Part shown: in pieces, positions 1 to 29,951 of the stretch
How positions within the stretch are numbered: the stretch's first letter is position 1
Layout: the number at the start of each line of letters is the position of its first letter
Origin: Amphritea atlantica
GTDB taxonomy: Bacteria > Pseudomonadota > Gammaproteobacteria > Pseudomonadales > Balneatricaceae
Reading direction: 5' to 3'
DNA length: 64,000 nucleotides
Assembly: GCA_024397875.1 (NCBI GenBank)
Contig: CP073344.1
Location: 611,001 to 675,000 of the forward strand
Notes under the pieces: generated by a model
What the model saw: the letters and a program-made list of their open reading frames with translations, nothing else
Told to the model about the DNA's origin: nothing
The model's database searches: none
Program-made: the position numbers and the translations under genes

Positions 1-355
1 ATTGTGTGCGTGCGCGTTTTGACACCGCAATATTGCGGAGGGGATCGTTGTATCTATTTAAAATGAAAGAGTAATTATGAAGCACGTCGTTTTTCATCCC
101 CTGAAAACACGCCAGCACGGTTTGCTGTGTTTTTTATGGCACGCTTTGTCACTGGCCATATTTCCTATCTGATTGATAATGCACCACTTTACGGCGTTAT
201 GCCAGTGTCAAACCGTGCCTGTTTATCAATCGCCTGATGACAAAGCGTGCCGAACTGCGGAGGTTGTTAAAATAGAGCGTGTTGATATACAAGGTCTAAC
301 CGACTGACCCGTCAGCGTGATATTTCATAACGGGTTACAGGGTGGTTAGTGTCGG
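1..355. other. Gene-free leader region with interleaved inverted repeats
   Basis: No convincing gene is seen. Several inverted repeats can be read directly: GCACGGTTTG at 115-124 with its complement at 209-218, GGCACGCTTTGTC at 138-150 with its complement at 239-251, ACTGGC at 151-156 with GCCAGT at 201-206, and GATTGATAA at 171-179 with its complement at 223-231. The first two pairs interleave instead of nesting, so they could form a pseudoknot or two alternative folds. Whether this is RNA, a recombination site or a decayed element is unknown. Confidence 0.5.
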
Positions 356-19417: not shown

Positions 19418-19494
19418 CGGGATGTAGCGCAGCCTGGTAGCGCACTTGCATGGGGTGCAAGGGGTCGTGGGTTCAAATCCCGCTATCCCGACCA
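19418..19494 (+). tRNA. tRNA-Pro(GGG)
   Basis: This 77-nt cloverleaf has acceptor stem CGGGATG paired with TATCCCG, D-arm GCGCAGCCTGGTAGCGC, anticodon stem CTTGC/GCAAG with loop ATGGGGT (anticodon GGG), T-arm GTGGGTTCAAATCCCGC, and an encoded CCA. A partial, decayed copy of its 3' end lies about 180 bp downstream. Confidence 0.97.
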
Positions 19495-19506
19495 TTTATT
19501 CAACTT

Positions 19507-19533
19507 AAAAGCCTGCTTACTGCAGGCTTTTTT
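19507..19533 (+). terminator. Terminator of tRNA-Pro
   Basis: AAAAGCCTGC and GCAGGCTTTT form a stem followed by T residues, 12 nt after the tRNA. A near-copy of this hairpin recurs at about 19708-19730 beside the degraded tRNA copy. Confidence 0.85.
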
Positions 19534-19648
19534 GTGCCTGTTATATGCATTGCTGAAGCGGGATTTATTCGCAACGCTGTTGCTCCCCTTCGGGCCGTTG
19601 TACCAGTACAACGTTGTCTCGTTTCACTTGCCTGACTCAGCCGAGCGA

Positions 19649-19740
19649 AGCGACGAGTCAATCTCGCTATCCCAACCAATTATTCAACTTATATTATTGA
19701 ACATAGAAGCCTGCTTGCTGCAGGCTTTATTGTGTCTGTT
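19649..19740 (+). repeat. Degenerate duplicate of the tRNA-Pro 3' end and its terminator
   Basis: The stretch TCTCGCTATCCCAACCA (19662-19678) matches the tRNA-Pro 3' end with a few changes, and the following ATTATTCAACTTA and GCCTGCTTGCTGCAGGC match the sequence after tRNA-Pro. The 5' part of the tRNA is missing or unrecognisable. It may be the remains of a tandem tRNA gene or an att-like repeat left by an integrated element. It adjoins the integrase remnant. Confidence 0.75.
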
Positions 19741-19873
19741 TTTCTGCCATAAAGACTGATATTTTCAAAGTCTGTTCTGTTCGATAGGCCAGGCCATTGA
19801 TGCGGATATGGTGGCGAAGTTGCTCAATAAAGCGAGTGGGTTTGTTGGGTATCTTGTGTCTAATGTCATCCAT
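19727..19873 (-). pseudogene. Integron integrase, N-terminal remnant only
   Basis: Read on the minus strand from ATG 19873, the 48-codon frame gives TRFIEQLRHHIRINGLAYRT at residues 13-32. This is the N-terminal core-binding (SAM-like) helix pattern of integron integrases, with the typical AYRTEQT after it. The similarity stops at residue 35; the rest is unrelated sequence from the tRNA-Pro duplicate. The catalytic domain with its R-H-R-Y residues and the IntI-specific insert are therefore deleted. It faces away from the cassette array, as intI genes do. The identification rests on about 25 residues, but the cassette array beside it supports it strongly. Confidence 0.8.
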
Positions 19874-20053
19874 GACTGAATCTCTTTTAACTGTTTTTAT
19901 ATACAGTAGTTTGCAGGTCCTTATATGTCAATTATCCCAATTCAGGGGACCCCCTTTCCCTTGAACACTGAAAATAATGAACTAACTCTTTGATTTAATG
20001 GGGTATGGATATTATGATTCAGGCAAGTTTATGGCAGGGACGCAGCCACAACA

Positions 20054-20199
20054 GGCACTATAATTCTGTAAACTGCCTCTCGTAATTCTTGCTAACCTGC
20101 TGATATATAAAATGAATTTGAATTTTGGCCTGCCGAATTCTCAGGCTTATAGTGCCTGGGAGTTATAGTGCCAAACGGCACTATAACTAGCTGTTAACG
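20054..20199 (+). other. Candidate attI region with repeated GGCACTATAA motif
   Basis: This stretch lies between the integrase remnant and the first cassette, where attI belongs. GGCACTATAA occurs four times: plus orientation at 20054-20063 and 20177-20186, minus orientation at 20147-20156 and 20163-20172. The last two form a 12-bp perfect inverted repeat (20161-20188) with a 4-nt loop. The junction core GTTAACG at 20193-20199 is the exact complement of the CGTTAAC that ends the first cassette. The repeats may be integrase-binding sites or a regulator's operator. Confidence 0.65.
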
Positions 20200-20212
20200 A
20201 TAAGGAGAAATC

Positions 20213-20791
20213 ATGAAATGGATGCCAGCTATTCCTACCGACAATTTATATAAATTTTGTGCTATATCTGGGATGTGGATGTTTTTCGGTCTGGTTGTTT
20301 TATATACGTGGATTGTTGCCATAACCATACAAATAGAAAAAGAAGGAAGTGCATCAACCTCTTACTATTCTTCACTTATTACTGTAAGCGATATAGAGAG
20401 AAGGCTTGATTCAATCGAAAAGGGCTTGGAAAAAGAGAATAAACTTGACTGGACTTCAACAGAATGGGACATCGATCAGGAAAAGAATTTTCTTGAACAC
20501 GCTCTTAAAAATCACAGAAAGAGCATGAAGCTCAATGAGTATGCGATTAACTCTGATACTGGTGAGCAATTAAATCTGATTAAGCGCCCAGCAGTATATA
20601 TACCTGGACTACTTTATCTAGCTCTGATGTCTTTTCTTTTAGTTATTGGATTTTTCCGTTGGAAAACCAAGATCCAAGACATCGACTTAGAAATCAGAAA
20701 GGTTGAGTTAGAGACCAAGAAGAGAGCACTAGTAAAGTTAGATCTGGAGATTCGGAATCTGAATAGTAAGCGACGACACTGGTCTCGTTAA
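20213..20791 (+). CDS. Cassette 1: two-membrane-segment protein of unknown function
   Basis: I do not recognise this 192-residue protein. It has a membrane segment at about 19-42, a charged loop of about 80 residues with many Glu and Lys, a second membrane segment at about 125-147 and a C-terminal amphipathic coiled coil (about 150-190, rich in LEIRKVELETKKR). AAGGAG lies upstream of the ATG, only 14 nt after the cassette junction core, which is typical for a cassette gene. It is AT-rich compared with flanking host genes, and its stop codon lies inside the attC start. Confidence 0.8.
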   Translation: MKWMPAIPTDNLYKFCAISGMWMFFGLVVLYTWIVAITIQIEKEGSASTSYYSSLITVSDIERRLDSIEKGLEKENKLDWTSTEWDIDQEKNFLEHALKNHRKSMKLNEYAINSDTGEQLNLIKRPAVYIPGLLYLALMSFLLVIGFFRWKTKIQDIDLEIRKVELETKKRALVKLDLEIRNLNSKRRHWSR

Positions 20792-20884
20792 CAAACGCAT
20801 GAAATATCGCGCGCTTAAATTCACCGCTTCGCGGTGCGCGCTGGACTCGCAACAAGTTGCTCGCCATTTATGCGGGCGTTAGGT
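20786..20884 (+). repeat. attC site of cassette 1
   Basis: CGTTAAC (20786-20792) opens the site and GTTAGGT (20878-20884, a perfect GTTRRRY core) closes it. The outer arms TAACAAACGCAT and ATGCGGGCGTTA pair, and inner imperfect repeats around the CCGCTTCGCGG centre fill the 99 nt, as expected for an attC recombined as a folded single strand. Confidence 0.9.
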
Positions 20885-20889
20885 GATAA

Positions 20890-21375
20890 ATGAGCCTCAA
20901 GAAAATATTCGTAATAAATTTGGTGCTGGGCATTTTTGTTTGTTTGGCACATATTCCAGTAGTTGCTTTGAAGCTCAGCGGGGCTAGTGGTTTTGAGTCT
21001 GTAAATCTTTGGCAGGTTTTACCCCTAATCCCTTTTGATCTAGTACTCTTATTGGGTGCAATCGCGGCTCTAGCTGGTTCTGATGAGCGTAAGTCCAAAA
21101 TATTGCCAGTGCACGCCGTAATTTTTGGGTTACTTTCTGCCCTTATTGTAGGCATGTTGCTTTGGTTCGTTTTGCTCGGCTTTCCAGAGGGTAACTTCAG
21201 TTGGTCTCCGGGCTTTGGGGCTGCACTGGTAGGTTATTCAGTGCACGTATGTAAGCGAGCCTTTTATCAGGGCACTAGTAAACTTATGGCTAATGCAGGC
21301 TGGTACTCAGCAGGCATAGTCTTCTTTTTTGAGCTGGTTTTAATGTACAAGTTCTATGTTGTGCACTTCACCTAA
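20890..21375 (+). CDS. Cassette 2: four-membrane-segment protein of unknown function
   Basis: I do not recognise this 161-residue integral membrane protein. Hydrophobic segments are at about 7-28, 40-60, 75-100 and 130-153. It starts 6 nt after the attC core of the previous cassette with a weak AGGTG ribosome site, which suggests translation depends on upstream transcription or the cassette junction. It has no cysteine or histidine motifs that would hint at catalysis. Confidence 0.75.
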   Translation: MSLKKIFVINLVLGIFVCLAHIPVVALKLSGASGFESVNLWQVLPLIPFDLVLLLGAIAALAGSDERKSKILPVHAVIFGLLSALIVGMLLWFVLLGFPEGNFSWSPGFGAALVGYSVHVCKRAFYQGTSKLMANAGWYSAGIVFFFELVLMYKFYVVHFT

Positions 21376-21442
21376 CAAGCAAAGGCAGCATCGCCCTGCG
21401 GGCTGGACGCGCTAACGCGCGCCGCTGCTTTGGGCGTTAGCT
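21370..21442 (+). repeat. attC site of cassette 2
   Basis: ACCTAAC (21370-21376) is a perfect RYYYAAC core and is the exact complement of the GTTAGGT at the start of this cassette. The other end is GTTAGCT (21436-21442), one base off consensus. AAGCAAAGGCAGC pairs with GCTGCTTTGGGCGTT across a GC-rich centre. The whole is 73 nt. Confidence 0.92.
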
Positions 21443-21461
21443 GTCAATTGAGGTATCGAAG

Positions 21462-21644
21462 TTGAACTTAAAGGAAATGTCACCTCTAGAACTTGTGGAA
21501 TCACTACAGAAGTATCCTGTAGATGAGAACCCTGAGACGCATCAAAGTATTAAGGCTGAAATTGAATCGAGAAAAAAGCAGCTTGATAATAAAGCTAAAA
21601 CTGGCGTATCAAACGGTGCTGGTAAGGAATGCCTTGTCTCTTGA
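21462..21644 (+). CDS. Cassette 3, first frame: small unknown protein
   Basis: This 60-residue, soluble, highly charged protein (SPLELVESLQKYPVDENPE) has no recognised domain. It starts at TTG with GAGG nine nt upstream; ATG 21477 is an alternative with a poorer ribosome site. Its end overlaps the next frame by 16 nt, suggesting a coupled pair within one cassette. It may be a small toxin-antitoxin-like or accessory pair, but nothing in the sequence proves this. Confidence 0.5.
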   Translation: MNLKEMSPLELVESLQKYPVDENPETHQSIKAEIESRKKQLDNKAKTGVSNGAGKECLVS

Positions 21645-21946
21645 AGAAAAGAAGGCTAATTGGTACAGGGATTACCCTTGCCCTTTCTCTCATGTTTGGT
21701 TGGCAAATACTATCTGGCCTACGTGATCCTGTTCAAGCCTCCGCAATTCTTGGTGTTGTTCTTACGAGCTATATCTACTCAACCCTTAGAATTGAGTTGC
21801 TCCTTAAAGACCAGAAGACTTTAGAAAGTTTAGAGGCCGCGCAAACAAATGATGAAGTTAAGTGCATTACTAAAAGCTCAGTATTGCAAAAGGTAATAGT
21901 TACTTGTGCATATGTAGGTTTAGGCGCTCTGTATGTTTTCGCATAG
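21629..21946 (+). CDS. Cassette 3, second frame: small membrane protein of unknown function
   Basis: This 105-residue protein has membrane segments at about 10-28, 37-55 and 87-104. It is not recognised. AAGGA directly abuts the ATG, so TTG 21641 could also be the start. The frame overlaps the previous one and ends 3 nt before the attC core, so both lie in one cassette. Confidence 0.6.
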   Translation: MPCLLKKRRLIGTGITLALSLMFGWQILSGLRDPVQASAILGVVLTSYIYSTLRIELLLKDQKTLESLEAAQTNDEVKCITKSSVLQKVIVTCAYVGLGALYVFA

Positions 21947-21948
21947 CC

Positions 21949-22006
21949 AGCTAACAAGAAAAGCCATTTCGACGCGCCCTGCGCGCAACTGCTTTAAGCG
22001 TTAAGT
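21949..22006 (+). repeat. attC site of cassette 3
   Basis: AGCTAAC (21949-21955) is the exact complement of GTTAGCT at the start of this cassette. The far end GTTAAGT (22000-22006) is a perfect GTTRRRY core. The 58-nt site has paired arms around a short GCGCCCTGCGCGC centre and is close in size to the classical 59-base elements. Confidence 0.9.
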
Positions 22007-22019
22007 GCATGAGAGAGCG

Positions 22020-22334
22020 ATGAGAAAGTTTCTATTGCTGTTCATGGGTATAGTCTTGGTCCATTTTGTCGTAACGTATGGGCTATTGATTTTTCGTACT
22101 TATGAAGAAGTAAGTGTGATAAGGGGAGAGGCGCTCCATATGAGCACTTCGGGCGATTTGGCTGCAAATGTTGCTAAATTTTTATCACAACCTCTAATTA
22201 ACATTCAGGCTGTCCAACCTGATCCTACAGATGCGCTGCAAACATTTTCATTTATGTTAGGTAATTCAGCGATCTGGGCGGCAGCTATTTCGATGATGTG
22301 CTTATGTCGTATAAAGCGCTTAACAAACCGCTGA
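22020..22334 (+). CDS. Cassette 4: small two-membrane-segment protein of unknown function
   Basis: This 104-residue protein has an N-terminal membrane segment or uncleaved signal (about 4-24), a polar middle and a second membrane segment (about 78-95). ATG 22020 with a GAGAG ribosome site is preferred to the upstream GTG at 22005, which lies in the junction core. The frame runs past the attC core, so its last three or four residues are attC-encoded. It is not recognised. Confidence 0.6.
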   Translation: MRKFLLLFMGIVLVHFVVTYGLLIFRTYEEVSVIRGEALHMSTSGDLAANVAKFLSQPLINIQAVQPDPTDALQTFSFMLGNSAIWAAAISMMCLCRIKRLTNR

Positions 22335-22407
22335 AATTCGTTACGGCCACAGAAAGCGTGGCCTTCACTAGGACTCGCTTCGCTTGCCTTCTAGCGGGGC
22401 GTTATGT
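22318..22407 (+). repeat. attC site of cassette 4
   Basis: GCTTAAC (22318-22324) is a perfect RYYYAAC core. GTTATGT (22401-22407) closes the site with one base off consensus. AACCGCT pairs with AGCGGGGCGTT. The 90-nt site has GGCCAC/GTGGCC inner pairing. Confidence 0.88.
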
Positions 22408-22431
22408 GCTAACTAAGAACGACTTTCGATC

Positions 22432-22800
22432 ATGAAATTTAGATATTTAGGATGGTTTTTTCTGTTTCCTGCTCTAGCCGGGGCCACCTATGAATACTTC
22501 AACTTAGTCCGGTCTATAGATTCTGAGAAATTACAATTTGTAAGTGGGGAAGTTTCAGCTCTTCGCACATACAACGGATTTTCATCCTTTGAGGTTGAGG
22601 GTGTGGTATTTCGAATGCAGTCTTTTACTCCCTGCATTGATCAGCGCAAAAATATTCGAGATGATTTAGAAGTGAACATTAAATTTAAGTTGATACCAAG
22701 GTGGCCAGGAACTTTTGAAAGCTATGGCTGTATTGTAGAAATCGAGTATATTGGTGAAGTACAGAGTAAGCGCACTGGTCAGATGTCCCGTGGCACATAA
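22432..22800 (+). CDS. Cassette 5: small exported or membrane-anchored protein of unknown function
   Basis: This 122-residue protein has an N-terminal hydrophobic segment (about 5-22) and then a beta-rich domain with an SGEVSALRTYNGFSSFEVEG stretch. The pattern is loosely like small DUF3592-type proteins, but I cannot assign it. It contains two cysteines (about 62 and 100) in the presumed external domain. Its stop codon overlaps the attC core. Confidence 0.65.
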   Translation: MKFRYLGWFFLFPALAGATYEYFNLVRSIDSEKLQFVSGEVSALRTYNGFSSFEVEGVVFRMQSFTPCIDQRKNIRDDLEVNIKFKLIPRWPGTFESYGCIVEIEYIGEVQSKRTGQMSRGT

Positions 22801-22815
22801 CACATATGAGCCTTC

Positions 22816-23258
22816 CCGAAGTCAATAAACAATAACGCTCTTATCTGGCCGCGAAGCGGCCAGTGCTTTTCAATAAATCAGTCAGCCAGTTGTCTTCGTC
22901 TGTCATCGTGGTTGCCAAAACGAATTTGCAACAAACACATATTGAGACTCTCTTACCCCGTGCTCAACGGGTGCCAGCCTATTTATCGTCCCTGAAGCAG
23001 GCGGGGGTACTAGACATTCATCGGTTAACCTGAGAAAGGCGCTATTCAAAACTGTGGAATAGATTTCCAGTTAGTATCAGGCTCAGTTCAGGTGCAAACC
23101 GCTTTACTGATTATTCATGCACGCCAGTGAAGCGTCTAATCAAGGCCAGGGGCTAATGTGCCCGGACCAGAAGATCGATACTTCTGTTTAGTGATTACCC
23201 GATCTTCGACGGTCTCTGATATTTCCAGTTAGGTCTTCAGCTCACTCCACTGCGTGAC
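22816..23258 (-). ncRNA. Candidate bridge-RNA region downstream of the IS transposase
   Basis: About 440 nt of non-coding DNA lie between the transposase stop and the right end of the element. In IS1111-group elements the guide (bridge) RNA is made from this position. I cannot fold it here, and one frame (NLQQTHIETLLPRAQ) is open for about 60 codons and could be a decayed coding fragment instead. Confidence 0.35.
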
Positions 23259-24302
23259 TCACCCGGTTAAAAATTTTTGTTCATCAAATACCTGCTGGTT
23301 TTTAAGCATAAAATAAACACAACGCCCCAGTTTATGGGCCAGGGCGGTGAGCGCCTTCGCTTTACCCATACGTTTATGTAAGCGGGCCAGATATGACTGT
23401 GCTTTCTCATTTCCTCTTAGATAACCCACGGCGACTTCGCCAAAAGCCCATCTCAGGTGTGCGTTACCGATCTTATTACCCTGAGTACCGTAAATCTTCC
23501 CGGCGGACTCAGCCCGGCATTTGATCAATCGGCTGTAAGAGGCAAACTTCTGAACACTGTCAAAGCGGGTAATATCTCCAATCTCATACAGGATCGTGAG
23601 TGCCAGTATGCGTCCCATGCCGGGTAAGCTGGTTAAAATATGATAATCCCGGCCATTGTGATGTTTGGCGTGTTTTTCGATATAGCACTCGATAGAGCTG
23701 AGCTGCCGATGGTAAAAATCGATAATGTTAAGATCCAGATCGATACTTTTCTGCACGGACTCATCAGAGAACGTATGCCTCATCTGCTCTCGAGCACTGG
23801 GATAGCGTAGATTCAGGTTGTTCGGTGGCAGGTTGTACTGGCTGGTCGTGTTTTTAACATGGGCTTTCAGATCGGCACCGTGTTGTACAACCCGAGTTCG
23901 TCGGCGGAGCAGGTCGCGGGTTGCCCTCATCTCAGCAGGATAGACATAGGCTAAGGGGAAGTTTCCTCCCCGGATAAGATGTGCAATTTTGTAGGAATCG
24001 ATCCGATCGTTCTTGGCTTTACCCCCATGGATCGCTTTCATATACAGGGCGTGACCCAGGATAAAATCGATGTTATGTTCATGGCAGAAATCTGAAATCC
24101 AGTACCAGCAATGCATGCATTCGACACCGACAACCACATTACCGAGGTAGGGTGTCAGCAGGTCTAACAGGGGTTCTGGTCTGGCTTTGATCTCTTTATG
24201 AAGCGCAGTTTGCCCATCATCATCTAAAATACAGACGTACAGGGAACGTGCATGCAGGTCGATACCGCAGTAAAAAGGATGATTATCAGTGTAAAATCTC
24301 AT
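23259..24302 (-). CDS. IS110-family transposase (DEDD recombinase)
   Basis: This 347-residue recombinase has the RuvC-like N-terminal DEDD domain: FYCGIDLHARSLYVCILD with the first aspartate, GVECMHCW with the glutamate, and KNDRIDSYKIAHL with the next acids. The C-terminal Transposase_20 domain follows (LPGMGRILALTILYEIGD) with the serine region CRAESAGKIYGTQGN. The length is normal, with no frameshift, so it may be active. IS110 enzymes are now known to be guided by an RNA encoded in the element's own ends. Confidence 0.95.
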   Translation of the reverse strand: MRFYTDNHPFYCGIDLHARSLYVCILDDDGQTALHKEIKARPEPLLDLLTPYLGNVVVGVECMHCWYWISDFCHEHNIDFILGHALYMKAIHGGKAKNDRIDSYKIAHLIRGGNFPLAYVYPAEMRATRDLLRRRTRVVQHGADLKAHVKNTTSQYNLPPNNLNLRYPSAREQMRHTFSDESVQKSIDLDLNIIDFYHRQLSSIECYIEKHAKHHNGRDYHILTSLPGMGRILALTILYEIGDITRFDSVQKFASYSRLIKCRAESAGKIYGTQGNKIGNAHLRWAFGEVAVGYLRGNEKAQSYLARLHKRMGKAKALTALAHKLGRCVYFMLKNQQVFDEQKFLTG

Positions 24303-24433
24303 GGGTCTTCTCCTTTTGGTTTGGTCGCCTTCCAGCTTAGTGTGAAAACGGTAAGCTGGGGGGAGAAGGCTCTATGAGTATCAAGTAGCGGCAGAGCGAC
24401 AGCCAACGCTTCGCACCTTTAGTGTTACTCGGT

Positions 24434-24497
24434 GGCGCTCCAACATTAATACAAAAGGCGCTTCGCGCTGGCTGCGCCTGCGCTGAGCATTAGGGCT
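24434..24497 (+). repeat. Degenerate attC remnant before the acetyltransferase cassette
   Basis: AGGCGC and GCGCCT form an inner stem, and the site ends with ATTAGGGC (24489-24496), a GTTRRRY-type core whose first G has become A. That core is complementary to GCCCTAAC at the end of the next cassette, which shows the boundary. The left arm is poorly matched, so this attC is probably decayed. Confidence 0.5.
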
Positions 24498-24500
24498 ACT

Positions 24501-25007
24501 ATGGAAATACAAACATATTCTGCAGATAAAGCTAAGGAAATTGCTGACTTGTTTCATCAATCTGTTCATGCGATTTCCCCCTTGCTGTATTCATCTGAGC
24601 AAAAGGAAGCTTGGGCACCTACCCCTGTCGATTATGAGCGCTGGTCTGAGCGACTGAATGCGAAAAAACCATTTATAGCTTTAATTGAAGGTCGTATAGC
24701 GGGCTTTATCGAATTAGATGATGATGGTCATATTGACTGTACTTATACTCACCCGGACTTCCAGAGAAGAGGAGTCGCATCCGGCCTGTATGAACGTTTG
24801 CTCAATGAAGCAAGGGCCAAAAATATCATGCGCTTACACGTCGAGGCATCACTTGTTGCTAAGTCGTTCTTTGAGCATCGTGGCTTCACTACGGTTAAGA
24901 AGAATGAAGTTCAAAGAAACGGGGTTACCTTAGTCAATTTTTCAATGGAAAAGTATTTAAGCCCTAACAATCAAATGCAGCCGACCGCTAACGTGTCGGC
25001 TGATTAG
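24501..25007 (+). CDS. Cassette 6: GNAT-family N-acetyltransferase
   Basis: This 168-residue acyltransferase uses acetyl-CoA to modify an unknown amine. The GNAT fold is clear: an N-terminal YSADKAKEIADLFHQSVH helix pair, GFIELDDDGHIDCTYTHPDFQRRGVASGLY (motif A with the Q/RRGVAS pyrophosphate loop, about residues 88-100), and the FFEHRGF segment of motif B. The last dozen residues (NQMQPTANVSAD) are encoded by the attC itself, since the frame reads through the site. The substrate may be an antibiotic, a polyamine or a protein; the sequence does not tell. Confidence 0.9.
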   Translation: MEIQTYSADKAKEIADLFHQSVHAISPLLYSSEQKEAWAPTPVDYERWSERLNAKKPFIALIEGRIAGFIELDDDGHIDCTYTHPDFQRRGVASGLYERLLNEARAKNIMRLHVEASLVAKSFFEHRGFTTVKKNEVQRNGVTLVNFSMEKYLSPNNQMQPTANVSAD

Positions 25008-25017
25008 GGCGTTACAA
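24961..25017 (+). repeat. attC site of the acetyltransferase cassette (last in array)
   Basis: GCCCTAAC (24961-24968) complements the ATTAGGGC start of the cassette. The centre AGCCGAC/GTCGGCT is a perfect 7-bp stem. The other end is GTTACAA (25011-25017), which departs from consensus, as expected for the last core of a decaying array. The site is about 57 nt. Confidence 0.85.
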
Positions 25018-25127: not shown

Positions 25128-26396
<1,269 letters not shown>

Positions 26397-29168: not shown

Positions 29169-29244
29169 GTCCCATTCGTCTAGTGGCCTAGGACACCGCC
29201 CTTTCACGGCGGTAACAGGGGTTCGAACCCCCTATGGGACGCCA
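29169..29244 (+). tRNA. tRNA-Glu(TTC), copy 1
   Basis: The 76-nt cloverleaf begins GTCCCATTCG and ends in GGGACGCCA. The anticodon stem CCGCC/GGCGG encloses CTTTCAC with anticodon TTC. CCA is encoded. Three copies in this cluster look identical. Confidence 0.97.
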
Positions 29245-29255
29245 TCTTTTGCGAC

Positions 29256-29331
29256 GCGGAATTAGCTCAGTTGGTAGAGCGGAACCTTGCCAAGGTTCAG
29301 GTCGTCGGTTCGAGCCCGATATTCCGCTCCA
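29256..29331 (+). tRNA. tRNA-Gly(GCC), copy 1
   Basis: The 76-nt cloverleaf begins GCGGAATTAGC and ends TTCCGCTCCA. The anticodon stem GAACC/GGTTC encloses TTGCCAA with anticodon GCC. Two copies in this cluster look identical. Confidence 0.97.
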
Positions 29332-29383
29332 TTCTTTCAGATACACCTCCTTTATATTTATACTCCCTGATTCATACTGATGA

Positions 29384-29551
29384 CGTTGCTCGTTGCTCGT
29401 TGCTCGTTGCTCGTTGCTCGTTGCTCGTTGCTCGTTGCTCGTTGCTCGTTGCTCGTTGCTCGTTGCTCGTTGCTCGTTGCTCGTTGCTCGTTGCTCGTTG
29501 CTCGTTGCTCGTTGCTCGTTGCTCGTTGCTCGTTGCTCGTTGCTCGTTGCT
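29384..29551 (+). repeat. Perfect 7-bp tandem repeat, 24 copies
   Basis: The unit CGTTGCT is repeated 24 times without a mismatch (168 bp), followed by a partial unit CGT. It lies between two tRNA blocks. Because 7 is not a multiple of 3, all plus frames through it read the same cycled peptide (LVARCSL), which is an artefact and not a gene. Copy number is likely to vary between strains. Confidence 0.97.
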
Positions 29552-29622
29552 CGTCGTTTTTTCAGTGTTTTTTCTGCGTGCCGCAGATCTTTTATTTCAG
29601 TGTTTTTTTTGATGTTTTTCTC

Positions 29623-29651
29623 TTGACGAAGGGTAGGTTAGTCATTAATAT
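29623..29651 (+). promoter_or_regulatory. Second tRNA promoter with stringent-type discriminator
   Basis: TTGACG at 29623-29628 and TAATAT at 29646-29651 are 17 nt apart. The following ACGCGCCTCC is a GC-rich discriminator of the kind that makes stable RNA promoters sensitive to ppGpp. It precedes the second tRNA block. Confidence 0.85.
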
Positions 29652-29691
29652 ACGCGCCTCCTCTGACGAGGAAGTTACAAAAAGTGACTGT

Positions 29692-29767
29692 GTCCCATTC
29701 GTCTAGTGGCCTAGGACACCGCCCTTTCACGGCGGTAACAGGGGTTCGAACCCCCTATGGGACGCCA
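29692..29767 (+). tRNA. tRNA-Glu(TTC), copy 2
   Basis: It is identical by eye to the first copy over 76 nt, with anticodon TTC and encoded CCA. It opens the second block, 41 nt after the strong promoter. Confidence 0.97.
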
Positions 29768-29778
29768 TCTTTTGTAAA

Positions 29779-29854
29779 GCGGAATTAGCTCAGTTGGTAG
29801 AGCGGAACCTTGCCAAGGTTCAGGTCGTCGGTTCGAGCCCGATATTCCGCTCCA
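29779..29854 (+). tRNA. tRNA-Gly(GCC), copy 2
   Basis: It is identical by eye to the first tRNA-Gly copy, with anticodon GCC and encoded CCA. Confidence 0.97.
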
Positions 29855-29875
29855 AATTACAGCCTGTCTGTATGC

Positions 29876-29951
29876 GTCCCATTCGTCTAGTGGCCTAGGA
29901 CACCGCCCTTTCACGGCGGTAACAGGGGTTCGAACCCCCTATGGGACGCCA
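29876..29951 (+). tRNA. tRNA-Glu(TTC), copy 3
   Basis: It is the third identical copy of tRNA-Glu and closes the cluster. Confidence 0.97.

Follow-up and report, generated by a model that had tools for sequence, protein, structure and literature searches.

Introduction

Integrons are described as one integrase gene next to one attI site. A 64-kb stretch of the Amphritea atlantica genome, referred to here as the window, contains an integron locus of a different build. This locus is an orphan integron platform. It has an attI site, a Pc-like promoter and an array of gene cassettes, and its integrase gene (intI) is reduced to a stub.

The genome (G000) shares with a sedentary chromosomal integron the attI site, the Pc-like promoter, the attC-bearing cassettes and an integron integrase (IntI) of the 2a3v kind. 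It differs in having one integrase and about ten attI sites, not one array beside one intI. Clusters of attC sites lacking an integrase (CALINs) occupy conserved loci in Xanthomonas, and their mobilisation in trans by IntI has been proposed (PMC12444791). The Amphritea loci are likewise cassettes with attC and no local integrase, at loci conserved across species. They differ in that a copy of the genome's own attI, together with a promoter-like pair, heads the arrays, whereas attI is unmentioned for the Xanthomonas loci in the available parts of that article (PMC12444791). Insertion at attG (PMC12444791) also places cassettes outside the main array through a trans-acting IntI; attG is neither attI nor attC, whereas a conserved attI block of more than 200 bases is present here. 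Delta-attI-type cassettes of mobile integrons also carry attI sequence away from its usual place. Their attI lies downstream of the cassette gene and replaces attC (PMC12901181), whereas here it lies upstream of entire arrays, at distinct chromosomal loci. The open-access literature, as searched by titles and the starts of abstracts and with subscription journals mostly missing, yielded no account of dispersed attI.

The attI platform and the integrases of the genome

The platform in the window is composed of the following features:

19768..19873, minus strand: remnant of intI, first 35 codons; DNA homology breaks at 19768
19891..19906: LexA-box-like sequence CTGTTTTTATATACAG, upstream of intI
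19983..20196, plus strand: attI platform block, a dispersed repeat with a promoter-like pair, inverted repeats and the crossover GCTG^TTA between 20193 and 20194
19990..20018, plus strand: putative Pc-like promoter, TTGATT-17-TATGAT, recognised from sequence

The 48-codon open reading frame (ORF) at 19727-19873 on the minus strand was initially annotated as an integrase stub. This holds for its first 35 codons, while the remaining 13 are unrelated flank. Between the integrase portion and the N-terminus of the intact IntI encoded in this genome, identity is 88.6% (tblastn E 5e-16). The catalytic part is missing, as the initial annotation had it. The 48-residue frame has no match in Pfam or NCBIfam at E ≤ 1, so that a hidden Markov model search alone, the check proposed for this frame, would have missed a remnant that tblastn confirms. 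CTGTTTTTATATACAG resembles the LexA-box consensus, and a similar sequence lies upstream of intI at the two intact intI loci L089 and L158.

Two matches to TIGR02249 over the cut-off were found in G000. The first, at C1:2028104-2029045 (425 bits), is an intact IntI with no stop, 1.4 Mb from the window locus. Its residues 14-328 align with 2a3v, an integron integrase of solved structure (E 5.5e-87), and its gene adjoins an array of 11 attC sites. The intI-attI stretch of the window (19768-20196) is 89% identical to the intI-attI of this locus, and the homology ends at the crossover. The second is a different integron integrase at C1:1514670-1515608, which contains one in-frame TGA and has its own attI and attC array beside it. 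The window array had been predicted to be movable only by another integrase, and the genome does encode an intact one.

Two covariance models, R1 and R2, were used for attC. The training set of R1 includes the window attC, making its matches in the window self-matches, as well as 10 of the 11 attC beside the intact intI. R2 was trained on 32 attC, none of them from the window; 22 of the 32 were found using R1. In the R2 training alignment 97.1% of cells are paired, with a covariation of 0.648 versus 0.171 when shuffled. For the first 15 attC the helix support is 94.3% of cells paired (65.9% shuffled) and the covariation 0.692 (0.164 shuffled). A covariance search had been proposed with the initial annotation. 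Over the 64 kb, R2 finds five intact attC in the locus (E 2.7e-18 to 4.4e-6) and nothing else at E ≤ 1. The 874 kb of control DNA, taken from 43 of 80 loci of other genomes, all around one shared regulator gene, contains no R2 match at E ≤ 1. A Rfam scan of the window at the gathering threshold returned tRNAs only. At least 25 attC were counted in G000 at E ≤ 1, with 150 of 1306 candidates scored and the sites at L145 missing from the count.

The bottom strands of the five attC were also folded singly as DNA. Clear extra stability over shuffled sequences is seen in two (z −2.4 and −4.7) but not in the other three (z −1.5, −0.2 and −1.4). The folded arms in the initial annotation therefore rest on the alignment and not on single folds. 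A pairing-score attC finder was dropped as unspecific (16 matches in the window versus 2, 4 and 5 in shuffled DNA and 9 in reversed DNA), and the covariance models were used in its place.

Compared with a complete integron, the locus has the attI and the attC-bounded cassettes (five attC) and lacks an intI of functional length (35 codons remain). It falls under the CALIN definition of at least two attC and no adjoining intact intI. It is not an array without attI, a property outside the strict CALIN definition, since attI is present at 19983-20196.

Dispersed copies of the attI block

Window positions 19760-20200 (type A attI) were searched against 17 genomes of the genus, G000 among them. There are 37 matches in eight genomes: seven in G000, six in G001, three in G002, two in G006, nine in G007, four each in G010 and G013, and two in G014. 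Twenty-four extend at least to query position 435 (the crossover ends at 437), and 13 fall short. The query extends 4 bases past the crossover, and the end of homology at that point rests on other alignments and comparisons. The 23 aligned copies have the promoter, the inverted repeats and the crossover motif in common and are followed by unlike sequence. Over their 253 pairs, identity in ten-base steps is 0.82, 0.82 and 0.80 over the 30 bases up to the crossover and drops to 0.33, 0.28 and 0.30 over the 30 that follow. The best promoter-like match is TTGATT or TTGAAT, a spacing of 16-17 bases and TATGAT in 16 of the 23 copies. On its left side the repeat ends differently from locus to locus, fading towards intI. 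Palindromic repeats adjoin several copies.

An intact intI lies beside only two of the 24 crossover-bearing copies (L089 and L158). A tblastn search of IntI against 26 upstream flanks gave a significant match in the window only; at the tRNA-Pro locus of G001 (L156) a remnant of the intI-attI region is visible at the DNA level (query 3-306).

At thirteen of the 22 type A platforms without intI, R1 or R2 finds attC within 6 kb on the strand of the cassettes with E ≤ 0.1 (the window, L148, L150, L151, L153, L154, L155, L157, L161, L162, L164, L179 and L185). The count of 22 keeps all platforms, including two with only 1-1.5 kb of sequence. At L151 (C1:2790 kb of G000) the first cassette after attI encodes, as read by eye, an apparent IS91-type transposase.

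Cassette turnover at shared loci

Orthologous loci were recognised by their flanks. They are loci A (G000, G001, G014), B (G000, G001, G010, G014), C (G000, G001), D (G000, G010), F (G007, G002), the tRNA-Pro locus (G000, G001, G007) and the intact locus (G000, G001). Locus C is empty, with no attI, in G007 and G002. Over 11 same-locus pairs between species, attI identity is 0.68-0.956. The 200 bases after attI are at chance level (0.472-0.524) in ten of these pairs, one of which is the intact locus; the chance level from 242 different-locus pairs is 0.505 ± 0.019. With attI retained, the first cassette differs between the species in these ten. At locus F the 200 bases are conserved (0.917), and both genomes of this pair (G007 and G002) have no IntI match at E ≤ 1e-20.

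No intI remnant is detectable at loci A, B and C in either species. The junction letters beside the window stub appear by eye to be the same, at the same place, in G001, which there lacks the 3' half of attI. From these two observations the turnovers are most simply placed after the loss of the local integrase.

In a tree of the 23 attI copies, loci B, D, F, the intact locus and C group by locus, while A and tRNA-Pro do not resolve; the bootstrap is not fully settled. The locus E copy of G000 falls inside locus C (100/99) and is 95% identical to the locus C copy. Together, the sequence comparisons support platforms that are homologous, older than the species and subject to changes of cassette.

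Some sequences recur between arrays. The first cassette of the intact array of G004 is found again in an array about 0.8 Mb away (98.3% over 460 bases). Other stretches common to separate arrays occur in G004 (90.8% over 358 bases), G003 (96.6% over 355 bases) and G007 (87.5% over 336 bases).

Other attI types and other genera

Further attI types are dispersed as well. One lies at the left edge of the window:

1..251, minus strand: part of an orphan type C attI, unrelated to the attI of the window array; the crossover is just outside the window

Type C is the attI of the G014 integrase. Over 262 bases the window-edge copy shares 86.3% identity with the attI side of that integrase, and one weak attC (21.2-22.8 bits) lies about 2.7 kb further on. 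Additional type C copies are present in G008 (two) and G010, with a shorter match in G003. Type B is the attI side of the second integrase of G000 and has three further copies in G006. The own attI of G003 recurs at L203, and a further type of G001 (L188) recurs at C1:1614 kb of G000, in G006 and in G008. In all, G000 has about ten attI sites (seven type A, one B, one C and one further) and one intact integrase. Upstream of the array at 3.6 Mb in this genome, no attI could be recognised.

At locus E (L151, L188, L189) the attI differs in type between three genomes, with type C in G010 and another type in G001. This suggests that locus E is a hot spot where platforms are inserted or replaced. 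G003 (L187, L201-L209) is another genome with dispersed arrays, having 34 attC matches over many contigs and one intact IntI.

IntI was found at E ≤ 1e-90 in 86 of 195 genomes of the order. Beyond the genus, eight genomes were hand-picked among 30 listed loci, a small and non-random sample, and the 240 bases beside intI were searched in each. L229 and L235 (contig ends) and L231 (flank looked coding) were dropped before the search and replaced by L236, L241 and L249. Further attI copies starting at the crossover were found in three of the eight genomes: two in G050, one in G112 and 14 rows in G019, five of these at contig ends. None were found in G100, G106, G024 and G018, and G071 gave only a 26-base match. 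Nine of the G019 copies were read. At seven of ten G019 loci examined (R1, E ≤ 0.01 each) and at both G050 copies, attC is present.

A probable single integrase for many platforms

The probable reading of these data is a distributed integron, in which a network of attI platforms is served in trans by one distant integrase. The IntI at 2.03 Mb would most likely serve at least the seven related platforms, moving circular cassettes into and out of each attI, and the promoter of each platform is predicted to be active. We infer from the sequences that it is this distant IntI that performs cassette exchange at the orphan attI. The occurrence of attC at 13 of 22 orphan type A platforms, with none in the control DNA, is counted for the distributed integron. 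So is locus F, the conserved pair, which comes from two genomes without an IntI match, and so is the recurrence in G004 of the first cassette of the intact array at a second array.

Several results weigh against this reading. Nine of the 22 platforms have no attC in reach at E ≤ 0.1 (L118 with 1.5 kb of sequence, L149, L152, L160, L163 with the contig ending after 1 kb, L166, L167, L181 and L184). The platforms of G000 share only attI and the IS110-family insertion sequence (IS), and no cassette (at least 120 bases at 75% identity or more). In G004, the array that received the recurring cassette has no matching attI. Platforms persist in G002, G007 and G013, genomes without an IntI match, which implies that they need no integrase to survive. 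Locus F is one pair only. The turnover could also stem from an integrase since lost, or from the transfer of whole loci.

How the platforms came to be dispersed is a separate matter. The chances are about even that complete integrons inserted separately and that intI was mostly deleted afterwards, since one suffices, attI and promoter being kept by selection. This origin agrees with the 35-codon stub of the window and with a few intI codons at L223 in G008, deduced from the start of a match, as well as with the locus-dependent left ends of the repeat and the three attI types at locus E. Deletions of an intI of about 1 kb should, however, often leave pieces, and a significant remnant was found in only one of 26 flanks. 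The grouping of the G000 locus E copy with locus C, with no intI remnant there, suggests instead that an orphan attI was copied as such. As a general process, the attI-promoter block would have been copied around the chromosome without an integrase, multiplying the docks at which one trans-acting IntI places captured genes, for several unlike attI types and in other genera of the order too; this is possible but less likely than not.

It is unlikely that the window locus is a frozen relic, that is, an ordinary CALIN left after intI loss, with the other attI copies being dead remains of once complete integrons and the species differences predating the losses. The stub and the G001 remnant are what such a history would leave, and the lack of a common cassette among the G000 platforms and the persistence of platforms without IntI also fit it. 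Against it, close species have the same locus and attI with another first cassette where neither has an intI remnant, and the five attC of the window are sound. The term "decayed" in the initial annotation thus suits the integrase gene and not necessarily the dock, which is one of a dispersed attI family.

That the repeat is a miniature inverted-repeat transposable element or a repetitive extragenic palindrome and not attI is very improbable: it is multicopy and intergenic with inverted repeats, has palindromic repeats beside several copies and falls short of the crossover in 13 of 37 matches, but the same block lies between an intact intI and the first cassette in two genomes, its homology stops at the crossover motif with attC-bounded cassettes following at 13 of 22 platforms, and sequences at the attI position of other integrases behave alike.

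Cassettes and flanks of the window locus

The array and its neighbours are as follows, the ORFs being those of the ORF list:

19418..19494, plus strand: tRNA-Pro, left neighbour of the locus
20213..20791, plus strand: cassette 1 ORF, 192 aa, no family match over cut-off
20786..20884, plus strand: attC 1 (R2 E 1.8e-11)
20890..21375, plus strand: cassette 2 ORF, 161 aa
21370..21442, plus strand: attC 2 (R2 E 2.7e-18)
21462..21946, plus strand: cassette 3, two short overlapping ORFs (21462-21644 and 21629-21946)
21949..22006, plus strand: attC 3 (R2 E 8.1e-9)
22005..22334, plus strand: cassette 4 ORF, 109 aa, GTG start
22318..22407, plus strand: attC 4 (R2 E 1.1e-7)
22432..22800, plus strand: cassette 5 ORF, 122 aa
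24501..25007, plus strand: cassette 6 ORF, GNAT acetyltransferase, 168 aa (PF13673, 82.8 bits)
24962..25017, plus strand: attC 6 (R2 E 4.4e-6)
25158..26396, plus strand: 4-hydroxybenzoate 3-monooxygenase gene, right flank (TIGR02360, 642.9 bits)

Six cassettes are present on the plus strand, in agreement with the initial count of at least six. The attC between them were annotated correctly in five cases; that of cassette 5 reads by eye as split by an IS element. This element, the attI and the promoter-like pair are absent from the initial annotation.

The 3' end of tRNA-Pro (19476-19507) is repeated about 190 bases on at 19660-19691, and the terminator at 19496-19542 is repeated at 19694-19740 (91% and 87%). 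Similar second copies occur at the same place in A. pacifica (L010 and L009). This repeat may be a scar left by an element that made use of the tRNA gene. At 29169-29951 lies a group of five tRNA genes in which tRNA-Glu and tRNA-Gly recur in a pattern.

IS110-family element at the expected attC of cassette 5

IS1111-attC elements have an IS110-type transposase, a long noncoding stretch downstream of it and insertion at one end of attC (PMC11187229). The element in the window has these parts:

22803..24383, minus strand: IS110-family element, IS1111-attC-like, about 1.58 kb, ends approximate
23259..24302, minus strand: its transposase, 347 aa (NF033542, 217.5 bits, cut-off 140; Pfam DEDD_Tnp_IS110 and Transposase_20)
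22803-23258: noncoding stretch downstream of the transposase
22798..22802, plus strand: left end of the split attC 5, TAACA, by eye and from comparison of five IS copies
24384..24495, plus strand: right part of the split attC 5, by eye; the models do not find it in the window

It has the IS110-type DEDD transposase and the insertion at one attC end. Candidate subterminal inverted repeats, GAGCCTTC, lie near both ends by eye, the expected length for this group being 11-13 bp. The transposase type, noncoding stretch and attC-end insertion are those of IS1111-attC elements such as ISKpn4 and ISPst6. No difference in kind is seen from these elements as described (PMC11187229). This mode of insertion is already known for IS1111-attC elements.

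Over 1592 bases the window copy is 99.9% identical to a copy inside the intact integron array, and its best plasmid relative is 75.7% identical. There are four copies in G000 and one in G010, all five preceded by TAACA. Beyond the element, the models detect the continuing attC at three of these copies (L089, L225 and L145) but not in the window or at L144, so that for the window the split attC is read by eye.

At locus A of G000 (L148 from about 5335, C1:563 kb) a group II intron-like element, seen by eye, interrupts an attC. Beside attC, an 1100-base stretch is 100% identical between L285 5760-6859 and L225 4301-5400.

Implications

Should a single integrase serve many attI docks, the capture of genes would not be limited to one array, and each dock would give a first-position slot of its own for expression. 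In that case overlooked orphan attI might account for CALINs at conserved loci, such as those in Xanthomonas (PMC12444791).

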